Source: Hymenobacter gelipurpurascens (GTDB taxonomy: Bacteria; Bacteroidota; Bacteroidia; Cytophagales; Hymenobacteraceae). Taken from it: 64,000 bases of DNA. The stretch is taken from positions 1,488,001-1,552,000 of the forward strand of contig NZ_FYEW01000001.1 of assembly GCF_900187375.1 (NCBI RefSeq), written 5' to 3'. A model generated the notes under the pieces. That model made no database searches. It was not told where the DNA came from and worked only from the letters and a program-made list of their open reading frames with translations. Positions 39,700 to 55,764 of this stretch are shown one piece after another; the first letter of the stretch is position 1, and each line of letters begins with the position of its first letter. A program made the position numbers and the translations under genes.

Positions 39700-39732
39700 T
39701 TTGGAAGTGTAAAATTTCGACCAGTACATTTG
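39700..39732 (+). promoter_or_regulatory. Promoter of the sulfate assimilation leader
   Basis: TTTG (39700-39703) and TACATTTG (39725-39732) match the Bacteroidota -33 and -7 boxes with a 21-base gap. The same arrangement with the same gap occurs ahead of the second riboswitch at 55792-55824. Confidence 0.75.
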
Positions 39733-39760
39733 TAGCACCAATTCTTTCCCCATCAAAGGA

Positions 39761-39858
39761 TTGTTTTTATACAGAGGCGTGGAGAGACAGGCTCTACGAA
39801 GCGCCGGCAACCATCCGTAAGTGCGGAACGGTGCCAAGTCCTGACCATATAAAAACAA
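39761..39858 (+). promoter_or_regulatory. SAM-I (S-box) riboswitch ahead of the cys operon
   Basis: P1 is a perfect 11-bp helix, TTGTTTTTATA (39761-39771) with TATAAAAACAA (39848-39858). Between them are the conserved S-box blocks: AGAGGCGTGGAGAGACAGG, CTACGAAGCGCCGGCAACC and GGTGCCAAGTCCTGACC. The class binds S-adenosylmethionine and turns off downstream sulfur genes. Here it precedes a Cys-rich micro-ORF and then cysH. A second copy lies at 55666-55764 on the other strand. Confidence 0.93.
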
Positions 39859-39865
39859 CAACGCC

Positions 39866-39979
39866 GTGAACCGCTTCGTCAACACCACCGCCGCTTCTGC
39901 CACCTCCGCTTCTGTACAGCATGGGTGTTGTGGTATGGCTACTCCCGTCTCTATGACCGGAGCCTGTTGTTGTTGCTAA
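39866..39979 (+). CDS. Cys-rich leader micro-ORF between riboswitch and cysH
   Basis: A 37-codon frame starts at GTG 39866, 8 bases after the riboswitch P1 helix, and ends TGT TGT TGT TGC TAA, giving a GACCCC C-terminus. An internal ATG at 39935 would give MATPVSMTGACCCC. A second unrelated-in-sequence frame in the same place after the twin riboswitch (55552-55659) also ends GACCCC. Four cysteine codons next to the stop fit ribosome stalling when Cys-tRNA is scarce, as known for Cys-rich leader peptides in Mycobacterium. A role in attenuation of cysH is inference; a metal- or thiol-binding microprotein is the alternative. Confidence 0.65.
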   Translation: MNRFVNTTAASATSASVQHGCCGMATPVSMTGACCCC

Positions 39980-40187
39980 GGGCCACACTCCTCCTTTTTT
40001 CCTGGTTTGTAGGCTGATTGAGCTTTTCTGACGTGCGTAAGTGCGCGTCTAGCTGAGTCGTCTGCACCCGCCTTTTTCGCCTGGCGAAACCGTGTACCTG
40101 TCGCCCCGCGACGTTGCGTTTCTGCTTGGGCCATTCTCGGCCGGACTGCTGCCCCTGCGGTGGCCTCTCCTCACTTCTCTTCTTGTT

Positions 40188-40964
40188 ATGTCTGCAGCAT
40201 CTGCTGCGCCGGCCGTCCTGCCCGAGCTCGACGACCTGCGCCTTCAGCTTACATCTGCTAACGCCCTGGAGCGCCTGCGTCTGGTGGCTGAGCGCTTCCC
40301 TGGCAAAGCCGTGTTTTCCACTTCCTTTGGACTGGAAGACCAGATTATCAGCCACTTGATTTTCGCACATGAGCTTCCTATCAAGGTATTCACGCTGGAT
40401 ACCGGGCGCAATTTTCAGGAGACCTATTCCACCTGGAACAAGACCCTCCTGAAATACGAACAGCGCATTGAAGTATACTTTCCGCGCCAGGAAAGCGTGC
40501 AGGAGCTGCTCCTCGCCAAGGGCCCCAACAGCTTCTACGAGAGCGTCGACAACCGCAAGGAGTGCTGCTACATCCGCAAAGTGGAGCCTCTGAATCGGGC
40601 GCTGGCGGGGCAGCAGGCCTGGGTAACCGGCATTCGGGCCGAGCAGTCACAGAACCGCCAAACCATGGACCCCGTGGAGTGGGACGCGGCGCATAAGCTC
40701 ACCAAAATTCATCCGCTTTTCGACTGGACCTGGGAGCAGGCAGTGGCCTACGCCCAGGGAAACAGCATTCCCGTGAACCCGCTGCACCAACAAGGCTTCG
40801 TGAGCATTGGGTGCGCCCCCTGCACCCGGGCCATCAAACCAGGCGAAGACTTCCGGGCCGGCCGTTGGTGGTGGGAGGACCTTTCCGCCAAGGAGTGTGG
40901 CCTACACAGCACGGCTCATCACGACGGACCCGACCCGGTGGTAGAACCCGTGCCGGCGGGCTAG
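40188..40964 (+). CDS. cysH: Phosphoadenylyl/adenylyl-sulfate reductase
   Basis: The 258-residue product starts at ATG 40188. It has the PP-loop-like VFSTSFGLEDQII and TLDTGRNFQETY, RAEQSQNRQTM, and both cysteine pairs KECCYIRK (near 126) and GCAPCTR (near 208-211). The four cysteines bind the iron-sulfur cluster of the APS-reductase type, so adenylyl sulfate is the likely substrate. It is the first enzyme gene after the SAM riboswitch and Cys micro-ORF. The longer frame from 40092 adds a non-conserved stretch. The stop is TAG within TAGGCC. Confidence 0.93.
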   Translation: MSAASAAPAVLPELDDLRLQLTSANALERLRLVAERFPGKAVFSTSFGLEDQIISHLIFAHELPIKVFTLDTGRNFQETYSTWNKTLLKYEQRIEVYFPRQESVQELLLAKGPNSFYESVDNRKECCYIRKVEPLNRALAGQQAWVTGIRAEQSQNRQTMDPVEWDAAHKLTKIHPLFDWTWEQAVAYAQGNSIPVNPLHQQGFVSIGCAPCTRAIKPGEDFRAGRWWWEDLSAKECGLHSTAHHDGPDPVVEPVPAG

Positions 40965-41107: not shown

Positions 41108-42019
41108 ATGAGTACTCCTCCATTTGATTACCTCGACCGGCTGGAAGCCGAATCCATTCATATCCTGCGCGAAGTAGCGGGCCAGTTTGAGCGTCCGGCA
41201 CTGCTGTTTTCGGGCGGCAAAGACTCCATTGTGCTCACGCGCCTGGCCGAGAAAGCCTTTCGCCCCGGCCGCTTCCCCTTCCCGTTGGTACACGTGGATA
41301 CTGGCCACAACTTCCCGGAAGTCCTGGCCTACCGCGACGATCTGGCCGCCCGCCTGGGCGAAAAGCTAATTGTGCGCAGCGTGGAAGACACCATCAAGCG
41401 CCAGCGCCTGCGCGAGCCCGGCGGCAAATATCCGAGCCGCAACCCGCTTCAGACCTACACGCTGCTGGAGGTAATTGAGGAGTTTGAGTTTGATGCCTGC
41501 ATTGGGGGTGCCCGCCGCGACGAGGAAAAAGCCCGCGCCAAGGAGCGCATTTTCTCCGTGCGCGACGAGTTTGGCCAGTGGGACCCCAAGCGCCAGCGCC
41601 CCGAGCTCTGGAACGTATACAATGGCCGCATTCAGAAGGGCGAAAACGTGCGCGTATTCCCCATTTCCAACTGGACAGAGCTGGACGTGTGGCGCTATAT
41701 CCAGCGAGAAAACATTCAGCTGCCGGATATCTACTTCGGCCACGAGCGCACCTGCGTGGTCCTGCCCTCGGGCCAGCTCCTAGGCCTGTCGGAGCATTTA
41801 CACCTCGATGACGACGATGAAATCGTGACGCGCCAGGTGCGCTTCCGCACCGTGGGGGACTCTACGTGCACGGCCGCCGTGGAAAGCGACGCCGCCACCG
41901 TGGAAGACATCATTCAGGACCTGCTGCTGGCCAAAGTAAGCGAACGGGGCGCCACTCGCCTCGACGACAACATCTCGGAAGCCGGCATGGAAGACCGCAA
42001 GCGCAACGGCTATTTCTAA
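41108..42019 (+). CDS. cysD: Sulfate adenylyltransferase subunit 2
   Basis: The 303-residue product starts at ATG 41108 (MSTPPFDYLDRLEAESIHIL). It has the PP-loop LLFSGGKDSIVLTRLA near residue 36, HVDTGHNFPEVL, IGGARRDEEKARAKERIF and a C-terminus ending MEDRKRNGYF, as in CysD. With CysN it makes adenylyl sulfate from sulfate and ATP. It lies between cysH and cysN in the usual order. The GTG at 41060 is an unlikely start because it lies in a hairpin. Confidence 0.96.
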   Translation: MSTPPFDYLDRLEAESIHILREVAGQFERPALLFSGGKDSIVLTRLAEKAFRPGRFPFPLVHVDTGHNFPEVLAYRDDLAARLGEKLIVRSVEDTIKRQRLREPGGKYPSRNPLQTYTLLEVIEEFEFDACIGGARRDEEKARAKERIFSVRDEFGQWDPKRQRPELWNVYNGRIQKGENVRVFPISNWTELDVWRYIQRENIQLPDIYFGHERTCVVLPSGQLLGLSEHLHLDDDDEIVTRQVRFRTVGDSTCTAAVESDAATVEDIIQDLLLAKVSERGATRLDDNISEAGMEDRKRNGYF

Positions 42020-42111: not shown

Positions 42112-43398
42112 ATGGACTTACTCCGATTTATTACCTGCGGCAGCGTTGACGACGGCAAAAGCACCCTAATTGGCCGCTTGCTGTACGATTCCGAATCTGT
42201 GTCGCTGGATGTGCTGGCGGCACTGGAAAAGCGGCAGGCTTCTAACGGCGTCGTGGATCTGGCACTGCTGACCGATGGCCTACGCGCTGAGCGTGAGCAG
42301 GGTATCACCATCGATGTGGCCTACAAGTACTTCACCACGCCGCGCCGCAAGTTCATCATCACGGATGCGCCGGGCCACGTGCAGTACACCCGCAACATGG
42401 TGACAGGCGCCAGCAACGCCGACCTCGCCATTGTACTGGTGGATGCGCGCCAGGGCGTGATTGAGCAAACCCGCCGTCACACCCTAATTGCGGCGCTGCT
42501 GGGTATTCGGCAGTTTGTGTTGGCCGTGAACAAAATGGATCTGGTAGACTACGAGGAAGCGATTTTCGCTAAAATCGCGACGGATTACGCCGAGCTGACC
42601 AACCACTTCAATCTGCCGGCCGCCGTGGCTATTCCGCTTAGCGCCCTGCAGGGCGACAATGTGGTAACCCCCTCCACGCACCTGCCCTGGTACACCGGCC
42701 CCAGCTTGCTGGAACACCTGGAAAGCGTGCCCGGCACGCTGGAACGGTCCTCGGAACCCCGGTTCCAGGTTCAGTATGTCATCCGTCCGCAAACGGCCGA
42801 ACTACCCGACTACCGCGGCTATGCCGGCCAGATTCAGAGCGGCGCATACCGCCGTGGCGACCGGGTACTGATTCTGCCCTCGGGCCTGGAATCGGAGATT
42901 GAGGCGCTCGAAGTAAGCCAGCGGGAAGTAGAAGTAGCAGCGGCGCCCCAGGCCGTGGTGATTCGGCTGCGCGACGATGTGGACGTGAGCCGCGGCGACA
43001 CTATTGTGCCCGTAGGCCACCAGCCCACTGTAACAAGGGAATTGGAAGCCACCCTGTGTTGGATGAGCGAACAGCCACTGTGGCCGGGCCGCAAGCTCTT
43101 GGTGCAGCAGCACTCGGCCCTGGTGAAAGCCGCCATACCGGCTATCCTCTACAAGGTAAATGTGCAAACCTTCGCCCGCGTCGCGACGGATTCGGCCCAG
43201 CTCAACGACATCGTGCGGGTGCGCATCAAAACCGCGCTACCCCTGGCCCTGGATCATTATCAGGACAACCGTGTTTCCGGCTCCTTCATTCTGGTTGATG
43301 AGCTCAGCGGCGACACCGTAGCCGCTGGCCTCGTGGAAGCCGCCAACTCCGAGTATTTCACGGCCCCGGTGCCGCCGCCCGTCGTGTTTTCCATCTAG
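42112..43398 (+). CDS. cysN: Sulfate adenylyltransferase subunit 1 (GTPase)
   Basis: The 428-residue product is an EF-Tu-like GTPase: GSVDDGKSTLIGRLLYDSE (P-loop) near residue 11, DGLRAEREQGITIDVAYKYF (switch I), DAPGHVQYTRNMVTG and AVNKMDLVDYE, then two beta-barrel domains. GTP hydrolysis drives CysD. No APS kinase domain is fused, which fits direct APS reduction by CysH. It overlaps no gene and is followed after 27 bases by the uroporphyrinogen methyltransferase. Confidence 0.96.
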   Translation: MDLLRFITCGSVDDGKSTLIGRLLYDSESVSLDVLAALEKRQASNGVVDLALLTDGLRAEREQGITIDVAYKYFTTPRRKFIITDAPGHVQYTRNMVTGASNADLAIVLVDARQGVIEQTRRHTLIAALLGIRQFVLAVNKMDLVDYEEAIFAKIATDYAELTNHFNLPAAVAIPLSALQGDNVVTPSTHLPWYTGPSLLEHLESVPGTLERSSEPRFQVQYVIRPQTAELPDYRGYAGQIQSGAYRRGDRVLILPSGLESEIEALEVSQREVEVAAAPQAVVIRLRDDVDVSRGDTIVPVGHQPTVTRELEATLCWMSEQPLWPGRKLLVQQHSALVKAAIPAILYKVNVQTFARVATDSAQLNDIVRVRIKTALPLALDHYQDNRVSGSFILVDELSGDTVAAGLVEAANSEYFTAPVPPPVVFSI

Positions 43399-43425: not shown

Positions 43426-44208
43426 ATGTCCTTCACCAAACAGCCCCGGCTTACTGTGCTCGGCGCCGGCCCCGGCGACCCGGAGCTGCTCACGCTCAAA
43501 GGAGCCCGAGTGCTGGGCGAGGCCGATGTTATCCTGTATGATGCGCTGGCCAACAACGAGTTGCTGCAGTATGCTCGCCCCGATGCCATTACGGTATTTG
43601 TGGGTAAGCGCAGAGGCCTGCGCAGCTACAGTCAGGATGAAATCAATGCCCTGATTGTGGAAAATGCTCTTTTGTATGGCCACGTAGTACGCTTGAAAGG
43701 CGGTGACCCTTTCGTGTTTGGGCGGGGCCGCGAAGAGATGCTGTATGCTGAGCAACATGGCCTGGCCACCGACTACGTGCCGGGTATCAGTAGCGCGGTG
43801 GCGGCGGCGGGTAGCGTGGGCATCCCGGTTACGCACCGGGGCGCCAGCGAGGGGTTTCGGGTGATTACGGCTACCACCGCCACCGGCGAGTTGTCGGGCA
43901 GTGTCGCCGAAGCCGCCCGTTCCCGCACCACTACCGTCATTCTGATGGGCCTGGGCGAGTTGGAACGTATTGTAGGCCTGTTCAGCCAACATGGGCAAGC
44001 CAATACGCCGGCTGCCATTGTACAAAACGGCACCCTGCCCTCGGCGCGCCTGGTTACCGGGACCGTGGCGGAGCTTCCCGCTCGCGTGGCGGCAGCAGGC
44101 CTGGGCGCGCCCGCCATTATCATAATTGGAGAGGTGACGCGCCTGGCCCGGCCCGAAGTGGTGGCCGCCGAAGCCTTTGCCGCAGTGGCCTACGCCAACG
44201 TTGCCTGA
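43426..44208 (+). CDS. cobA: Uroporphyrinogen-III C-methyltransferase
   Basis: The 260-residue product is a SUMT: LTVLGAGPGDPELLTLKGAR at the start, DVILYDALANNELL, VRLKGGDPFVFGRGREEM, YVPGISSAVAAAGSVGIPVTHRG and the late VQNGTLPSARLVTGTV. It uses SAM to make precorrin-2, the siroheme precursor for sulfite reductase. The remaining siroheme steps are encoded by the Met8-TSUP fusion at 51276. Its place inside the cys operon shows that its product serves CysI. It is equivalent to the C-terminal half of CysG. Confidence 0.94.
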   Translation: MSFTKQPRLTVLGAGPGDPELLTLKGARVLGEADVILYDALANNELLQYARPDAITVFVGKRRGLRSYSQDEINALIVENALLYGHVVRLKGGDPFVFGRGREEMLYAEQHGLATDYVPGISSAVAAAGSVGIPVTHRGASEGFRVITATTATGELSGSVAEAARSRTTTVILMGLGELERIVGLFSQHGQANTPAAIVQNGTLPSARLVTGTVAELPARVAAAGLGAPAIIIIGEVTRLARPEVVAAEAFAAVAYANVA

Positions 44209-44264
44209 GTTGCCAGCCGGTGCAGAAGTGCCGGGCTCCATCCCACCGCCAGAACTCCTTCTAC

Positions 44265-46121
44265 ATGTCGACCCCCCTTTCTTCTACACTTCCCACCGGC
44301 CTCGATGAGGCCTCCCTGGAGCGGCTAACCACGGGCCTTTCCGATCAGCAATTGCTCTGGCTGAGCGGGTATCTCTATGGCCGCGTGGGAGCTGGCACCG
44401 CTGTGCCGCAGCCTACTGGGGTCGTTGCAGCGGCCCCGGCTGGCCGCCTGACGATTCTGTATGGCTCGCAAACCGGAAACAGCAAAAAAGCCGCGAACCT
44501 CACCGCCGAAGCAGCCCGCCAACGTGGCTTAGTTGCCACAGTGCGCGACATGAACGAGTACCCAACCAAAGACCTCAAGAGAGAGCAGCAACTACTAGTA
44601 ATTGTAAGCACACAGGGCGAGGGCGACCCGCCCATTGCAGCCGAAGAGCTCCATCAGTTTCTGCTCAGCAACCGTGCGCCCAGGCTGCCGGAGCTACGCT
44701 TCGCGGTGCTGGCCCTGGGCGACAAAAGCTACCTACAGTTCTGCCAGACGGGGTTTGAGTTCGATCAGCGGTTGGCGGAGCTGGGCGGACAGCGCCTGCT
44801 GGACCGCGTGGATTGCGACGTGGAATTTGAGCTGGAAACCCGCCAGTGGGCCGACCAGGTGCTGGACCTGATTGCCCAGTCGGTACCGACGGCGGCTCCC
44901 GTAAGCACTACTGTATCGGTGGGCGCTACGGTGGCGGTTCCGGCGGGGGTGTTTGCCTTTCAATCTTGCGCGCCGTTTGGTGGGGAGGTACTGCCCGAGG
45001 CGGAAGTGTATACCAGCAAAAACCCGTTTCAGGCACCCTTGCTGGAGAAGATTCAGCTGAACGGCCGCGGCTCCACGAAGGAAACCTATCACCTGGAATT
45101 TTCGCTGGAAGGCTCCGGAATTCAGTATGAAGCCGGCGATGCGCTGATGGTGCAGCCCACCAACCGCCCAGCGCTGGTGGAAGAAGTGCTGCAAGCCGCT
45201 CGCCTTTCGGCCATAGCACCCGTGCGTCTGGGAAGCACCGAGCTAGACTTGGTCACTGCCCTCACGGAGCGGCTGGAGCTATCAGTAGTGACGCGCGACG
45301 TGCTGGAACGCTACGCCGCGGTGGCACCCCAGCACACACATTTGCAGGAGATTCTGGCCGATAAAGCTAAACTTCCGGCGTACCTCTACGGCCGCGATGT
45401 AGCTGACTTGCTCACGGAGTTTCCTGTGGAGTTATCAGGGCAGCAACTGTCGGCGGTGCTGCGGCCTCTGCCGGCCCGCGCCTACTCCATTGCCAGCAGC
45501 CTGCTCGCGCACCCTGAGGAAGTGCATCTGACGGTTGGCGCCGTGCGTTACCAGGCCAACGGCCGCGACAAACACGGCGCCTGCTCCGTGTACCAGGCCG
45601 ACCACCTGAACCTCGGCGACACCGCCCGCGTGTGGGTCGACCGCAACGAATACTTTAAGCTGCCTCAGGATTCTGCCACCGACATTATTATGGTAGGCGC
45701 TGGAACAGGCGTGGCTCCGTTCCGGGCTTTTACGGAGGAGCGGGCTGAAAACGGCGCTACCGGCCGCAACTGGCTGGTGTTCGGCAACCCCCACTTCACC
45801 ACCGACTTCCTTTACCAGACGGAGTGGCAGCAGCACCTGAAAAAAGGCACCCTAGACCGCCTCGACGTGGCTTTCTCCCGCGACCAAAAGCAGAAAGTGT
45901 ACATCCAGCACCGCCTGCTGGAGCAGGGTCGCCGCCTCTACGACCAGCTTGAAAACGGCGCCTACTTCTACGTGTGCGGTGACAAAACCCGCATGGCTGC
46001 CGATGTGCAGCGCGCCCTACTCACCATCATCGGCCAGGAAAGTGGCCTAGGCGAAGAATACGCCGCTGAATACCTGAAGAAGCTGAAGAAGTCGCGCCGC
46101 TTTCTCGAGGACGTGTATTAG
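44265..46121 (+). CDS. cysJ: Assimilatory sulfite reductase (NADPH) flavoprotein subunit
   Basis: The 618-residue product starts at ATG 44265. It has an N-terminal region with LSDQQLLWLSGYLYGR, a flavodoxin domain with ILYGSQTGNSKKAANLTAEA near residue 67 and VIVSTQGEGDPP, an FAD domain with RAYSIASSLL, and an NADP domain with VGAGTGVAPFRAFTEER and a YFYVCGDKTRMAADVQ tail. It passes electrons from NADPH to CysI. It is close in length to the E. coli protein. A hairpin element separates it from the TonB receptor. Confidence 0.95.
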   Translation: MSTPLSSTLPTGLDEASLERLTTGLSDQQLLWLSGYLYGRVGAGTAVPQPTGVVAAAPAGRLTILYGSQTGNSKKAANLTAEAARQRGLVATVRDMNEYPTKDLKREQQLLVIVSTQGEGDPPIAAEELHQFLLSNRAPRLPELRFAVLALGDKSYLQFCQTGFEFDQRLAELGGQRLLDRVDCDVEFELETRQWADQVLDLIAQSVPTAAPVSTTVSVGATVAVPAGVFAFQSCAPFGGEVLPEAEVYTSKNPFQAPLLEKIQLNGRGSTKETYHLEFSLEGSGIQYEAGDALMVQPTNRPALVEEVLQAARLSAIAPVRLGSTELDLVTALTERLELSVVTRDVLERYAAVAPQHTHLQEILADKAKLPAYLYGRDVADLLTEFPVELSGQQLSAVLRPLPARAYSIASSLLAHPEEVHLTVGAVRYQANGRDKHGACSVYQADHLNLGDTARVWVDRNEYFKLPQDSATDIIMVGAGTGVAPFRAFTEERAENGATGRNWLVFGNPHFTTDFLYQTEWQQHLKKGTLDRLDVAFSRDQKQKVYIQHRLLEQGRRLYDQLENGAYFYVCGDKTRMAADVQRALLTIIGQESGLGEEYAAEYLKKLKKSRRFLEDVY

Positions 46122-53815: not shown

Positions 53816-55270
53816 CTAGGCCACTAGTTCCTCTTGTTGGGCGCGCAGCTTACTGTGTTTTTTGCCGTAGCCGAAGTAAATAGCCAGCCCGATGGCCAGC
53901 CAGACAGCCAGACGCAACCACGTTTCCCAAGGCAGGGCTACCATCATCACTACGCAGGTCAGGATGCCGAGAATAGGCACCAGCGGCACCCACGGCGTAC
54001 GGAAGCCACGGGGCGCATTGGGTTCTTTTTTACGCATGATGAGTACACCCAGGCACACCATCACAAAGGCCAGCAGGGTGCCAATGCTAGTCATCTCGCC
54101 CACTACCGAAATGGGCACGAAGCCTGCAAAGAGCGCAATGAACAGGCCTAGCAGCAGGCTGGACTCAAGCGGCGTGCGGAACTTGGCGTGGATGCGCGCA
54201 AAAACAGGAGGCAGCAGCCCATCCTTGGCCATGGAGAAAAACACGCGGGTCTGGCCCAGCAAATCCACCAGAATTACGGACGTGTAGCCAATGATAATGG
54301 CCAGAATTACGGCCGAGGAAAGCCAGGCATACGGCGTTTTTTCGATGGCAATAGCCACGGGAGCGGCACTGCCCTTGAACTCGGTGTAGTTGGCCAAGCC
54401 GGTCATGACGTGCCCAAACAGCACGAATAGAATGGTGCAGATAACCAGGGAGCCGATGATGCCGATGGGCATATTGCGCTGCGGATTCTTGGTTTCCTGA
54501 GCCATAGTGGCCACAATATCGAAGCCAATAAACACGAAGAATACCACACCGGCCCCACGCAGAATCCCGCTCCAGCCAAACTCGCCGAAGGTACCGGTGT
54601 TCTCGGGAATGTAGGGATGATAGTTGGCCGGATCGATGTACTGCCAACCCAGCGCGATGAACACCAGCACCACCGCAACCTTGAGCGTAACCACAATGGC
54701 ATTGAACCACGCCGAGCCCTTGGTGCCGCGAATGATGATAAGCGTGATAAGCAGCACAATCAGCATGGCGGGCACATTCACGAACCCGTGCACCGAGCTG
54801 CCATCAGCCAGCGTGGCCGACTCGAACGGCGACATCACTAGCTGCGGCGGCAGGTGTATGCCCGACTTAGCCAGAAATTTCAGCAGATACTGCGACCAGC
54901 TGATGGCCACCGTGGCAGCGCCTACGGAGTATTCCAGCACCAAATCCCAGCCGATAATCCAGGCAAACAGCTCGCCCATAGTGGCATAGGCGTAGGTGTA
55001 GGCCGAGCCAGATACGGGCACCATGGAGGCAAACTCGGCGTAGCAGAGTGCCGAAAATGCGCAGCCAATGGCTGCCACAATAAACGAGAGGGTGATGGCC
55101 GGGCCGGCATTATTGGCGGCGGCAATACCTGTGAGCGAAAACAATCCAGCCCCAATGATTACCCCAATGCCCATCGTGATGAGGTTGAAGCCGTTCAGAC
55201 TTCGTTTGAGGGTGTTTGCGCCGGTTTCGGCGGCTTCCTGCCGCAGCAGTTCCAGTGATTTTTTAAGCAT
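53816..55270 (-). CDS. APC family amino acid permease under SAM riboswitch control
   Basis: The 484-residue product starts at ATG 55270 (MLKKSLELLRQEAAETGANT). It has about 12-13 membrane segments and the APC pattern GIGVIIGAGLFSLTGIAAAN in the first helix, ALCYAEFASMVPVSGSAYTYAYATMGELFAWIIGW, and FVFIGFDIVATMAQETKNPQRNMP. It resembles cationic amino-acid transporters, but its leader carries a SAM-I riboswitch and a Cys-rich micro-ORF like those ahead of cysH. Uptake of methionine, cysteine or a related sulfur compound is therefore likely. The reading frame ends Val-Ala-stop in the CTAGGCCACT motif. Confidence 0.92.
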   Translation of the reverse strand: MLKKSLELLRQEAAETGANTLKRSLNGFNLITMGIGVIIGAGLFSLTGIAAANNAGPAITLSFIVAAIGCAFSALCYAEFASMVPVSGSAYTYAYATMGELFAWIIGWDLVLEYSVGAATVAISWSQYLLKFLAKSGIHLPPQLVMSPFESATLADGSSVHGFVNVPAMLIVLLITLIIIRGTKGSAWFNAIVVTLKVAVVLVFIALGWQYIDPANYHPYIPENTGTFGEFGWSGILRGAGVVFFVFIGFDIVATMAQETKNPQRNMPIGIIGSLVICTILFVLFGHVMTGLANYTEFKGSAAPVAIAIEKTPYAWLSSAVILAIIIGYTSVILVDLLGQTRVFFSMAKDGLLPPVFARIHAKFRTPLESSLLLGLFIALFAGFVPISVVGEMTSIGTLLAFVMVCLGVLIMRKKEPNAPRGFRTPWVPLVPILGILTCVVMMVALPWETWLRLAVWLAIGLAIYFGYGKKHSKLRAQQEELVA

Positions 55271-55551: not shown

Positions 55552-55659
55552 TCAACAGCAACAACACGCACCGCTACAACACGCCTGCCGATGGGCAGAA
55601 ACGCCAAAAGAGGCAGCAAAAACTACAAAACGGGCAGTACGGCAGGGGCGAAAATCCAC
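55552..55659 (-). CDS. Cys-rich leader micro-ORF ahead of the APC permease
   Basis: A 35-codon frame starts at GTG 55659, 6 bases after the riboswitch P1 helix, and ends TGT TGT TGC TGT TGA, giving QACCSGACCCC at the C-terminus. The last six residues, GACCCC, equal those of the micro-ORF at 39866-39979, whereas the N-terminal parts differ. This pattern of divergence with a conserved Cys-run at the stop supports translation and a stalling role. The permease start lies 281 bases further on. Function is inferred. Confidence 0.65.
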   Translation of the reverse strand: MDFRPCRTARFVVFAASFGVSAHRQACCSGACCCC

Positions 55660-55665
55660 GGCAAC

Positions 55666-55764
55666 TTGTTTTTATATGGTCAGGAATTGGCACCGTTCCG
55701 GCAGTTGCGGATGGTTGCCGACGCTTCATCGAGCCTGTCTCTCAGCGCCTCTGTATAAAAACAA
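55666..55764 (-). promoter_or_regulatory. SAM-I (S-box) riboswitch ahead of the APC permease
   Basis: On the minus strand the P1 helix is TTGTTTTTATA with TATAAAAACAA, the same 11 base pairs as in the copy at 39761-39858. The core blocks AGAGGCGCTGAGAGACAGG, CGATGAAGCGTCGGCAACC and GGTGCCAATTCCTGACC follow the S-box consensus closely. Upstream sequence shares ACCAATTCTTT with the other copy, so the two leaders are related by duplication. Confidence 0.94.

Follow-up and report, generated by a model that had tools for sequence, protein, structure and literature searches.

The window analysed here, a stretch of 64,000 nucleotides from Hymenobacter gelipurpurascens, contains an operon for sulfate assimilation whose genes follow in the order cysH, cysD, cysN, uroporphyrinogen-III methyltransferase and cysJ (Table 1). 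A SAM-I (S-box) aptamer and a short open reading frame that ends in cysteine codons lie ahead of the first gene. An earlier, sequence-only reading of this region had described a promoter, a complete aptamer with an 11-bp P1, a GTG-started frame and then cysH, and had proposed that the leader senses both SAM and cysteine. The aptamer is borne out by its match to the Rfam model RF00162 (73.4 bits, E 2.6e-15, against a gathering score of 44.4) and by the 11 pairs of P1 that can be read in the DNA, and cysH is indeed the next gene. The promoter is likewise recognisable as a putative one of the Bacteroidota style, composed of TTTG and TACATTTG; the TAnnTTTG consensus of Bacteroidota promoters is that given in the part of PMC9723704 consulted. 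A scan for sigma-70-type promoters found none. The frame has the 37 codons and the GACCCC end that had been described, but its GTG lies seven bases past the 11-pair P1 and not eight. Its translation is VNRFVNTTAASATSASVQHGCCGMATPVSMTGACCCC, followed by the stop codon, and it has no match among the NCBIfam models.

Table 1. Leader elements and genes in the window (positions count from its first letter)
Feature	Position	Strand	Evidence or remark
Candidate promoter, Bacteroidota style	39700..39732	+	TTTG 39700-39703, 21-base gap, TACATTTG 39725-39732; function predicted from sequence
SAM-I (S-box) aptamer, A-U-P1 type (type B)	39764..39855	+	Rfam RF00162
P1 3' strand, doubling as A-rich ribosome-entry region of the leader	39848..39858	+	pairs with 39761-39771
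Leader peptide frame	39866..39979	+	GTG start, 37 codons, end GACCCC
Segment 3' of the leader stop, most excess structure in relatives	39980..40070	+	60-nt windows, starts 0 to +30
cysH (PAPS/APS reductase), first gene of the operon	40188..40964	+	PF01507 157 bits; NF002537 above cut-off
cysD	41108..42019	+	TIGR02039 above cut-off (query from 41111)
cysN	42112..43398	+	TIGR02034 above cut-off
Uroporphyrinogen-III C-methyltransferase	43426..44208	+	TIGR01469 above cut-off; PF00590
cysJ, sulfite reductase flavoprotein	44220..46121	+	TIGR01931 704 bits, cut-off 668; frame from first GTG
APC-family amino acid permease, downstream of second leader	53816..55270	-	PF13520 197.9 bits
Second leader frame	55552..55659	-	GTG start, 35 codons, end ACCSGACCCC
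Second SAM-I aptamer, also type B	55669..55761	-	RF00162 76 bits (gathering score 44.4)

SAM-I leaders in the genome and in its relatives

Five SAM-I matches were found in the H. gelipurpurascens genome with RF00162, and two of them lie in the window. By covariance-model match, the window's aptamers are SAM-I riboswitches, for which SAM binding is predicted. Four of the five leaders carry a frame with a Cys-rich end, and they stand before four different genes: cysH, the permease, an ATP-grasp gene and metY. These frames are 35-54 codons long, and the start codon lies 8-10 bases past the end of the aptamer. The fifth leader, that of metH, has no Cys frame. The nearest NCBIfam model for the permease is BcaP, with a score below the BcaP cut-off, and the ATP-grasp gene (L002:2053-3078) is RimK-like. 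The presence of both genes under SAM/Cys leaders hints at uptake of sulfur amino acids by the one product and at a sulfur-related ligase in the other. A search of the same genome for stand-alone Cys-ended frames gave 54 matches to TGYTGYTGYTRA. Among 30 that were looked at, two are the leaders of the window itself, and among the other 28 a frame of at least 15 codons from ATG or GTG is present in five (L126, L129, L138, L151, L152).

The survey of relatives drew SAM-I matches from 80 genomes of the family and 198 of the class, taken best score first rather than at random, and without regard to any frame. Orientation was possible for 123 of the 125 loci (L050 and L064 were dropped), comprising 5 from the genome itself, 90 from the family and 28 from the class. 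The loci were typed by the sequence of the P1 3' strand, a rule that was fixed with the first 30 family loci already known. This gave 64 aptamers of type A (GATAAG and like) and 59 of type B (ATATAAA and like), with 58 of the latter coming from the genome itself or the family. For a Cys frame, at least three of the last ten residues had to be Cys, in a frame read from whichever start codon lay nearest within 3-19 bases downstream. Such a frame follows 55 of 59 type-B aptamers and none of the 64 type-A aptamers (Fisher p about 1e-30, with related genomes counted as independent, as in the other counts given here). Only 19 of the type-A loci offer a frame that reaches 12 codons at the leader position, which makes 55/58 against 0/19 the like-for-like comparison. 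Runs of three TGY codons are also absent from type A. The four type-B exceptions are L079 and L123, which are Cys-rich further inside, L063, which has one Cys pair, and L110, where a structural gene occupies the place.

The two types differ in other respects. Of the type-B P1 helices, 56/59 are without a G-C pair, while 60/64 of the type-A helices have two or three, a comparison that is partly circular as the P1 3' strand was itself the basis of the typing. By eye, P2b looks like GGG/CCC in type-A aptamers and like GAG/CUC in those of type B. Together with the change in P1, this difference suggests that two old SAM-I lineages exist side by side in one genome. The genes downstream, assigned by BLAST to thirteen reference proteins picked from the survey loci, divide as well. 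Type A precedes metH (45), genes of the cystathionine synthase/lyase type (10), homoserine dehydrogenase (6), a cysteine-synthase-like gene (2) and a TonB receptor (1). Type B precedes metY (23), cysH (10), permease (8), ATP-grasp (8), Na/H-antiporter-like (3), TonB receptor (2) and, directly, metZ-like (1) genes, with four unassigned.

A type-B pattern that does not require Cys is present in 90/101 Hymenobacter genomes. A type-B pattern is also present in 110/151 genomes of another family, which includes Mucilaginibacter: the frame of L173, from a genome of that family, is identical with that of Mucilaginibacter sp. MD40. In a sample of the phylum, a type-B pattern is present in 24/395 genomes, all in the window's class by kinship labels. 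Among the matches listed are Pontibacter, Rufibacter, Pedobacter, Mucilaginibacter, Sphingobacterium, Spirosoma, Algoriphagus, Chryseolinea, Ancylomarina and Bacteroidales assemblies. DNA resembling the window leader was also seen in NZ_CP095069.1 and NZ_CP095067.1, which are plasmids of Hymenobacter volaticus; no gene is listed beneath these matches in the gene table used, which is incomplete.

The position of the frame relative to the aptamer is constrained. The start codon lies 6-12 bases past the aptamer end in all 58 type-B frames, out of a searched range of 3-19, and A is found at positions -14, -13 and -12 in 78, 84 and 91% of them. These A-rich positions fall within the P1 3' strand, and thus the ribosome-binding region overlaps P1. 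In the consulted part of PMC6847099, which describes a phylum mostly devoid of Shine-Dalgarno sequences, ribosome profiling of F. johnsoniae indicates that A at -12/-13, -3 and -6 favours initiation, and that structure near the start hinders it. Given these data, the A-rich entry site inside P1 and the G-C-free helix, a P1 closed by SAM should mask the entry of ribosomes to the frame. The two sensors are therefore probably wired in series.

Cysteine and methionine codons of the leader frame

Earlier lists of frames had picked the start, among those in range, by Cys (or Cys plus Met) content. The counts were redone with the first ATG (or GTG) as the start regardless of Cys, and those for the 130 frames, the 59 Hymenobacter frames and the 81 named places below all follow this rule. 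Over the 130 frames, Cys makes up 34.3% of the last 12 residues and 3.4% of the rest, and Met 9.3% and 1.4%, which is a 10-fold and a 7-fold enrichment at the frame end, respectively. The sequence-only reading had named a lack of conserved Cys codons in the S-box leaders of related organisms as something that would refute it. The codons proved to be conserved: besides the result for 55/59 type-B loci, two or more consecutive Cys occur in 58 of the 59 distinct Hymenobacter frames, and three or more in 41. Clustered, conserved codons of the regulated amino acid in a short frame are a feature shared with amino-acid leader-peptide attenuators.

An inner block resembling QHGCCGM (39917-39937 in the window) recurs among the leaders of cysH, ATP-grasp and TonB-receptor genes, some 15 codons ahead of the frame end. 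Some Hymenobacter leaders have this inner block alone, without the terminal Cys run.

Named genomes supplied a further set. This named set comprises at least 120 stretches, of which 80 were taken as loci; one of them (L203) has two places, giving 81. At 40 of these 81 places, among the matches listed, the last 12 residues include three or more Cys, and at a further 18 that number is reached only when Cys and Met are counted together (58/81 in total). For comparison, 10 of 144 shifted-frame readings of the named places among the matches listed reach three Cys plus Met in the last 12. Neither enrichment is seen at 14 of the 81 named places among the matches listed, for example in Algoriphagus and some Sphingobacterium; the rule of a Cys/Met end is thus not universal outside Hymenobacteraceae. 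The remaining named places among the matches listed are 4/81 with a short frame and 5/81 with a long or open one. Of these five, L220 and L264 are the gene itself, L211 (at the locus edge) and L212 have no usable frame, and at L217 the match may have arisen by chance within a gene.

Some frames end in Met and have no Cys run, such as those of Ancylomarina (...VMRMQMMMRML), a Psychroflexus assembly (...MMMSMYMRMRMQ) and Bacteroidales (...HMAMRQPGC). As Met stands in the place of Cys in these clades, cysteine is probably not the sole amino acid that is read. In Mucilaginibacter, RNA pairing of AUGUGU may be a partial source of the Met signal.

RNA downstream of the leader frame

The structure analysis of 95 frames and the general tests for pairing and for terminators drew on sets restricted to frames that carry three or more Cys close to their end. 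In 95 frames, 60-base windows starting 0, +15 and +30 after the stop codon have mean z values of -0.94, -1.04 and -0.68 relative to shuffles (sem 0.13-0.15). Inside the frame the mean z of such windows is milder, at -0.37 to -0.74, and from +45 onwards it lies near zero (-0.23 to +0.06). The excess structure therefore extends into the frame, and is strongest in the region past the stop. In the 59 Hymenobacter frames the strongest window is the one at +15 (z -1.06), and a further dip follows at +75 to +90.

As a general switch, pairing between the Cys run and the RNA downstream was rejected, since this pairing is weak. Between the Cys region and the first 40 bases past the stop, its mean z is -0.35 (sem 0.14), with values below -2 in 13% of cases against 4-5% in three control pairings. 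In the window, local pairing of the Cys codons with AACAACAACGCC appears in the predicted fold, and was also set aside, its energy being no better than that of shuffles (z -0.01). The ATATAAATT leaders of other genera lack the AACAACAACGCC stretch.

An intrinsic terminator that would hold the Cys codons in its stem or loop was not found to be general: candidates at E<=-8 are present in 41/138 cases, against a mean of 38.7 (34-45) when the downstream side is shuffled. Canonical terminators at E<=-12 are present in 22/95 type-B leaders against 10.2 in shuffled sequences, and so in a minority at most, while the same scan in the type-A control gave 39/64 against 4.8. In several of the type-B terminator matches, the U tract is the TTGTTGTT of the Cys codons themselves.

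A hairpin with covariation is seen in leaders of the Mucilaginibacter type. The set comprised 24 leaders picked by hand from one genus of the sample and from named Mucilaginibacter, excluding L332 and L173 (the L173 stretch is that of L260), or 25 with L332, a Mucilaginibacter member that is without the conserved arm of the hairpin. In the 25 leaders, a hairpin with the 5' arm ACACGU has seven pairs with two-sided changes, and its covariation is 0.197 against 0.149 in shuffles, 3 of 500 being as high; without L332 it is 0.204, with 1 of 500. The ACACGU arm can alternatively pair with the Met-Cys codons AUGUGU, and the six core pairs of this alternative are present in 19, 24, 25, 23, 25 and 23 of the 25 leaders. 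No covariation is seen in the codon pairing among these leaders, the codons being nearly invariant. The two pairings would give the Mucilaginibacter leaders the anatomy of an attenuator.

A proposed two-signal leader and its alternatives

The proposal of a dual SAM/cysteine leader gains support from the conservation of the Cys codons, and it can be refined: the sensors are probably arranged in series, and Met can take the place of Cys. To judge from the sequences compared here, the leader quite probably integrates two signals, with the SAM aptamer gating the translation of a Cys/Met leader peptide. Binding of SAM would close P1 and block the A-rich entry site of the leader, as the position of that site implies. 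At low SAM the leader would be translated, and the speed of the ribosome on the Cys (or Met) codons, whose conservation points to this role, would report the level of charged tRNA-Cys/Met. A ribosome held up close to the frame end would change the RNA past the stop, and the sulfur gene would be switched on. Conversely, with no ribosome (SAM high) or a fast ribosome (Cys high), the sulfur gene would stay off. The last step could take place at the level of transcription or of translation. The logic would be that of an attenuator on which SAM imposes the untranslated 'off' state.

With somewhat less confidence, though still as the likelier case, these leaders can be regarded as a widespread Bacteroidota class in which a SAM aptamer without an expression platform of its own licenses an attenuator peptide. 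The RNA would compute 'SAM low AND charged tRNA-Cys/Met low', and the amino acid that is read could switch from Cys to Met. metH and the genes of the cystathionine synthase/lyase type, which involve no uptake or spending of inorganic sulfur, would be under SAM alone.

It is unlikely, if conceivable, that a SAM-controlled, translated leader acts by ribosome presence alone, for example by protecting the leader against Rho or RNases, and that the Cys codons are a brake that has nothing to do with cysteine supply. Such an arrangement would agree with the failure to find a general terminator in the leaders, and with the spacer past +75, which is G-poor (C 0.27 against G 0.17). RNA of G-poor, C-richer composition could suit Rho. 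However, it is exactly the sulfur amino acids that are enriched, before mostly sulfur genes and as Cys or Met depending on the clade, and sensing of supply fits this better.

Less probable again is that the Cys run serves as an RNA pairing element (UGYUGYUGY), with an incidental frame and SAM as the sole signal. Pairings of this kind can be drawn, as UGUUGUUGUUGC of the window can pair with AACAACAACGCC just past P1 in a predicted fold, and the AUGUGU codons of the Mucilaginibacter type with ACACGU past the stop. The codons nevertheless behave as codons. Runs of three TGY relative to the start are distributed 133:0:1 over the three frames (133 in frame, 1 out of frame), and the synonymous TGT and TGC mix freely (200:133). 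In other clades Met codons, a different RNA sequence, occur at the same place, which speaks for amino-acid supply rather than an RNA motif as the thing conserved. The weakness of the pairing between the Cys run and the downstream RNA is a further argument against such an element. A functional Cys-rich microprotein (e.g., metal- or redox-binding) produced at low SAM would account for the Cys-rich tail, fixed start and many copies, but is highly improbable, given that the sequence before the tail varies between gene contexts, that the tail is mostly at the extreme end and can have Met for Cys, and that the window frame matches no NCBIfam model.

The preferred reading, an aptamer that gates an attenuator peptide, joins devices that are well known separately. 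Riboswitches and leader-peptide attenuators belong to the textbook repertoire, and are usually treated as alternatives. In amino-acid attenuators such as E. coli trp, the leader peptide is rich in the regulated amino acid, and an untranslated leader would be off; the difference in the Bacteroidota leader would lie in a riboswitch that determines its translation. Two signals are reportedly combined in one leader by the tandem SAM/adenosylcobalamin riboswitch of Bacillus clausii metE. That leader has two aptamers, while the Bacteroidota leader has an aptamer in series with a translated peptide.

The closest peptides are encoded by the leaderless, polycysteine short ORFs known from mycobacteria (Shell 2015, PMC4633059), and cysteine-responsive attenuation is reported in M. 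smegmatis (Canestrari 2020, via PMC9031893, PMC13236596). As far as the consulted parts of these sources go, the likeness consists of a short upstream frame with a terminal Cys cluster before cysteine/sulfate genes. They describe leaderless uORFs, mention no riboswitch and concern Cys, whereas the Bacteroidota frame follows a SAM-I aptamer, starts from the P1 strand and can have Met instead. The window frame is not leaderless, as the 92-nt aptamer and the promoter-like sequence lie upstream of it. The uORFC-8-2 motif before cysS in Rhodobacterales is another leader frame with tandem Cys, for which ribosome-mediated attenuation is proposed (PMC8632094); it differs in having an intrinsic terminator, in being limited to cysS and to alphaproteobacteria, and in the absence of any mention of a SAM aptamer from the sections consulted. 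For a flavobacterium, leader-peptide attenuation before amino-acid operons is suggested in the consulted part of PMC9723704. No description of a SAM riboswitch coupled with a leader peptide of Cys or Met codons came to light in the open-access literature searched, to which subscription journals contribute little. Within that scope the combination is new, and its parts are known.

If the preferred reading is true, a riboswitch and an attenuator would act in series as a natural two-input gate, the target of the riboswitch being the attenuator's ribosome. This would explain why separate types of SAM riboswitch serve the genes of sulfate assimilation and sulfhydrylation on the one hand, and metH on the other, within the same clades. 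It would also give a function to many small leader frames in Bacteroidota, and is relevant to translational control by riboswitches in a phylum described, in the part of PMC6847099 consulted, as mostly without Shine-Dalgarno sequences.

Variants of the arrangement occur. An initiation site hidden by P1, as predicted here, is known from SAM-I riboswitches whose ribosome-binding site is part of the P1 3' strand (PMC2258182, in the part consulted); there the site is that of the downstream gene, whereas in the Bacteroidota type B it would be that of the leader peptide. At L110, L156, L220 and L264, a type-B aptamer is followed by a structural gene that starts at the usual position of the leader frame. 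The genes at these positions encode a PLP enzyme of Cys/Met metabolism, a PLP decarboxylase and metX, and judging by this arrangement the four loci look like the classical form. At two Rufibacter loci (L111, L253), a second Cys-ended frame without an aptamer of its own lies about 185-190 bases past the start of the first. These second frames end in ...CGRMCCC and ...FARMCCC, alike in both loci, and stand before a TonB-receptor gene.
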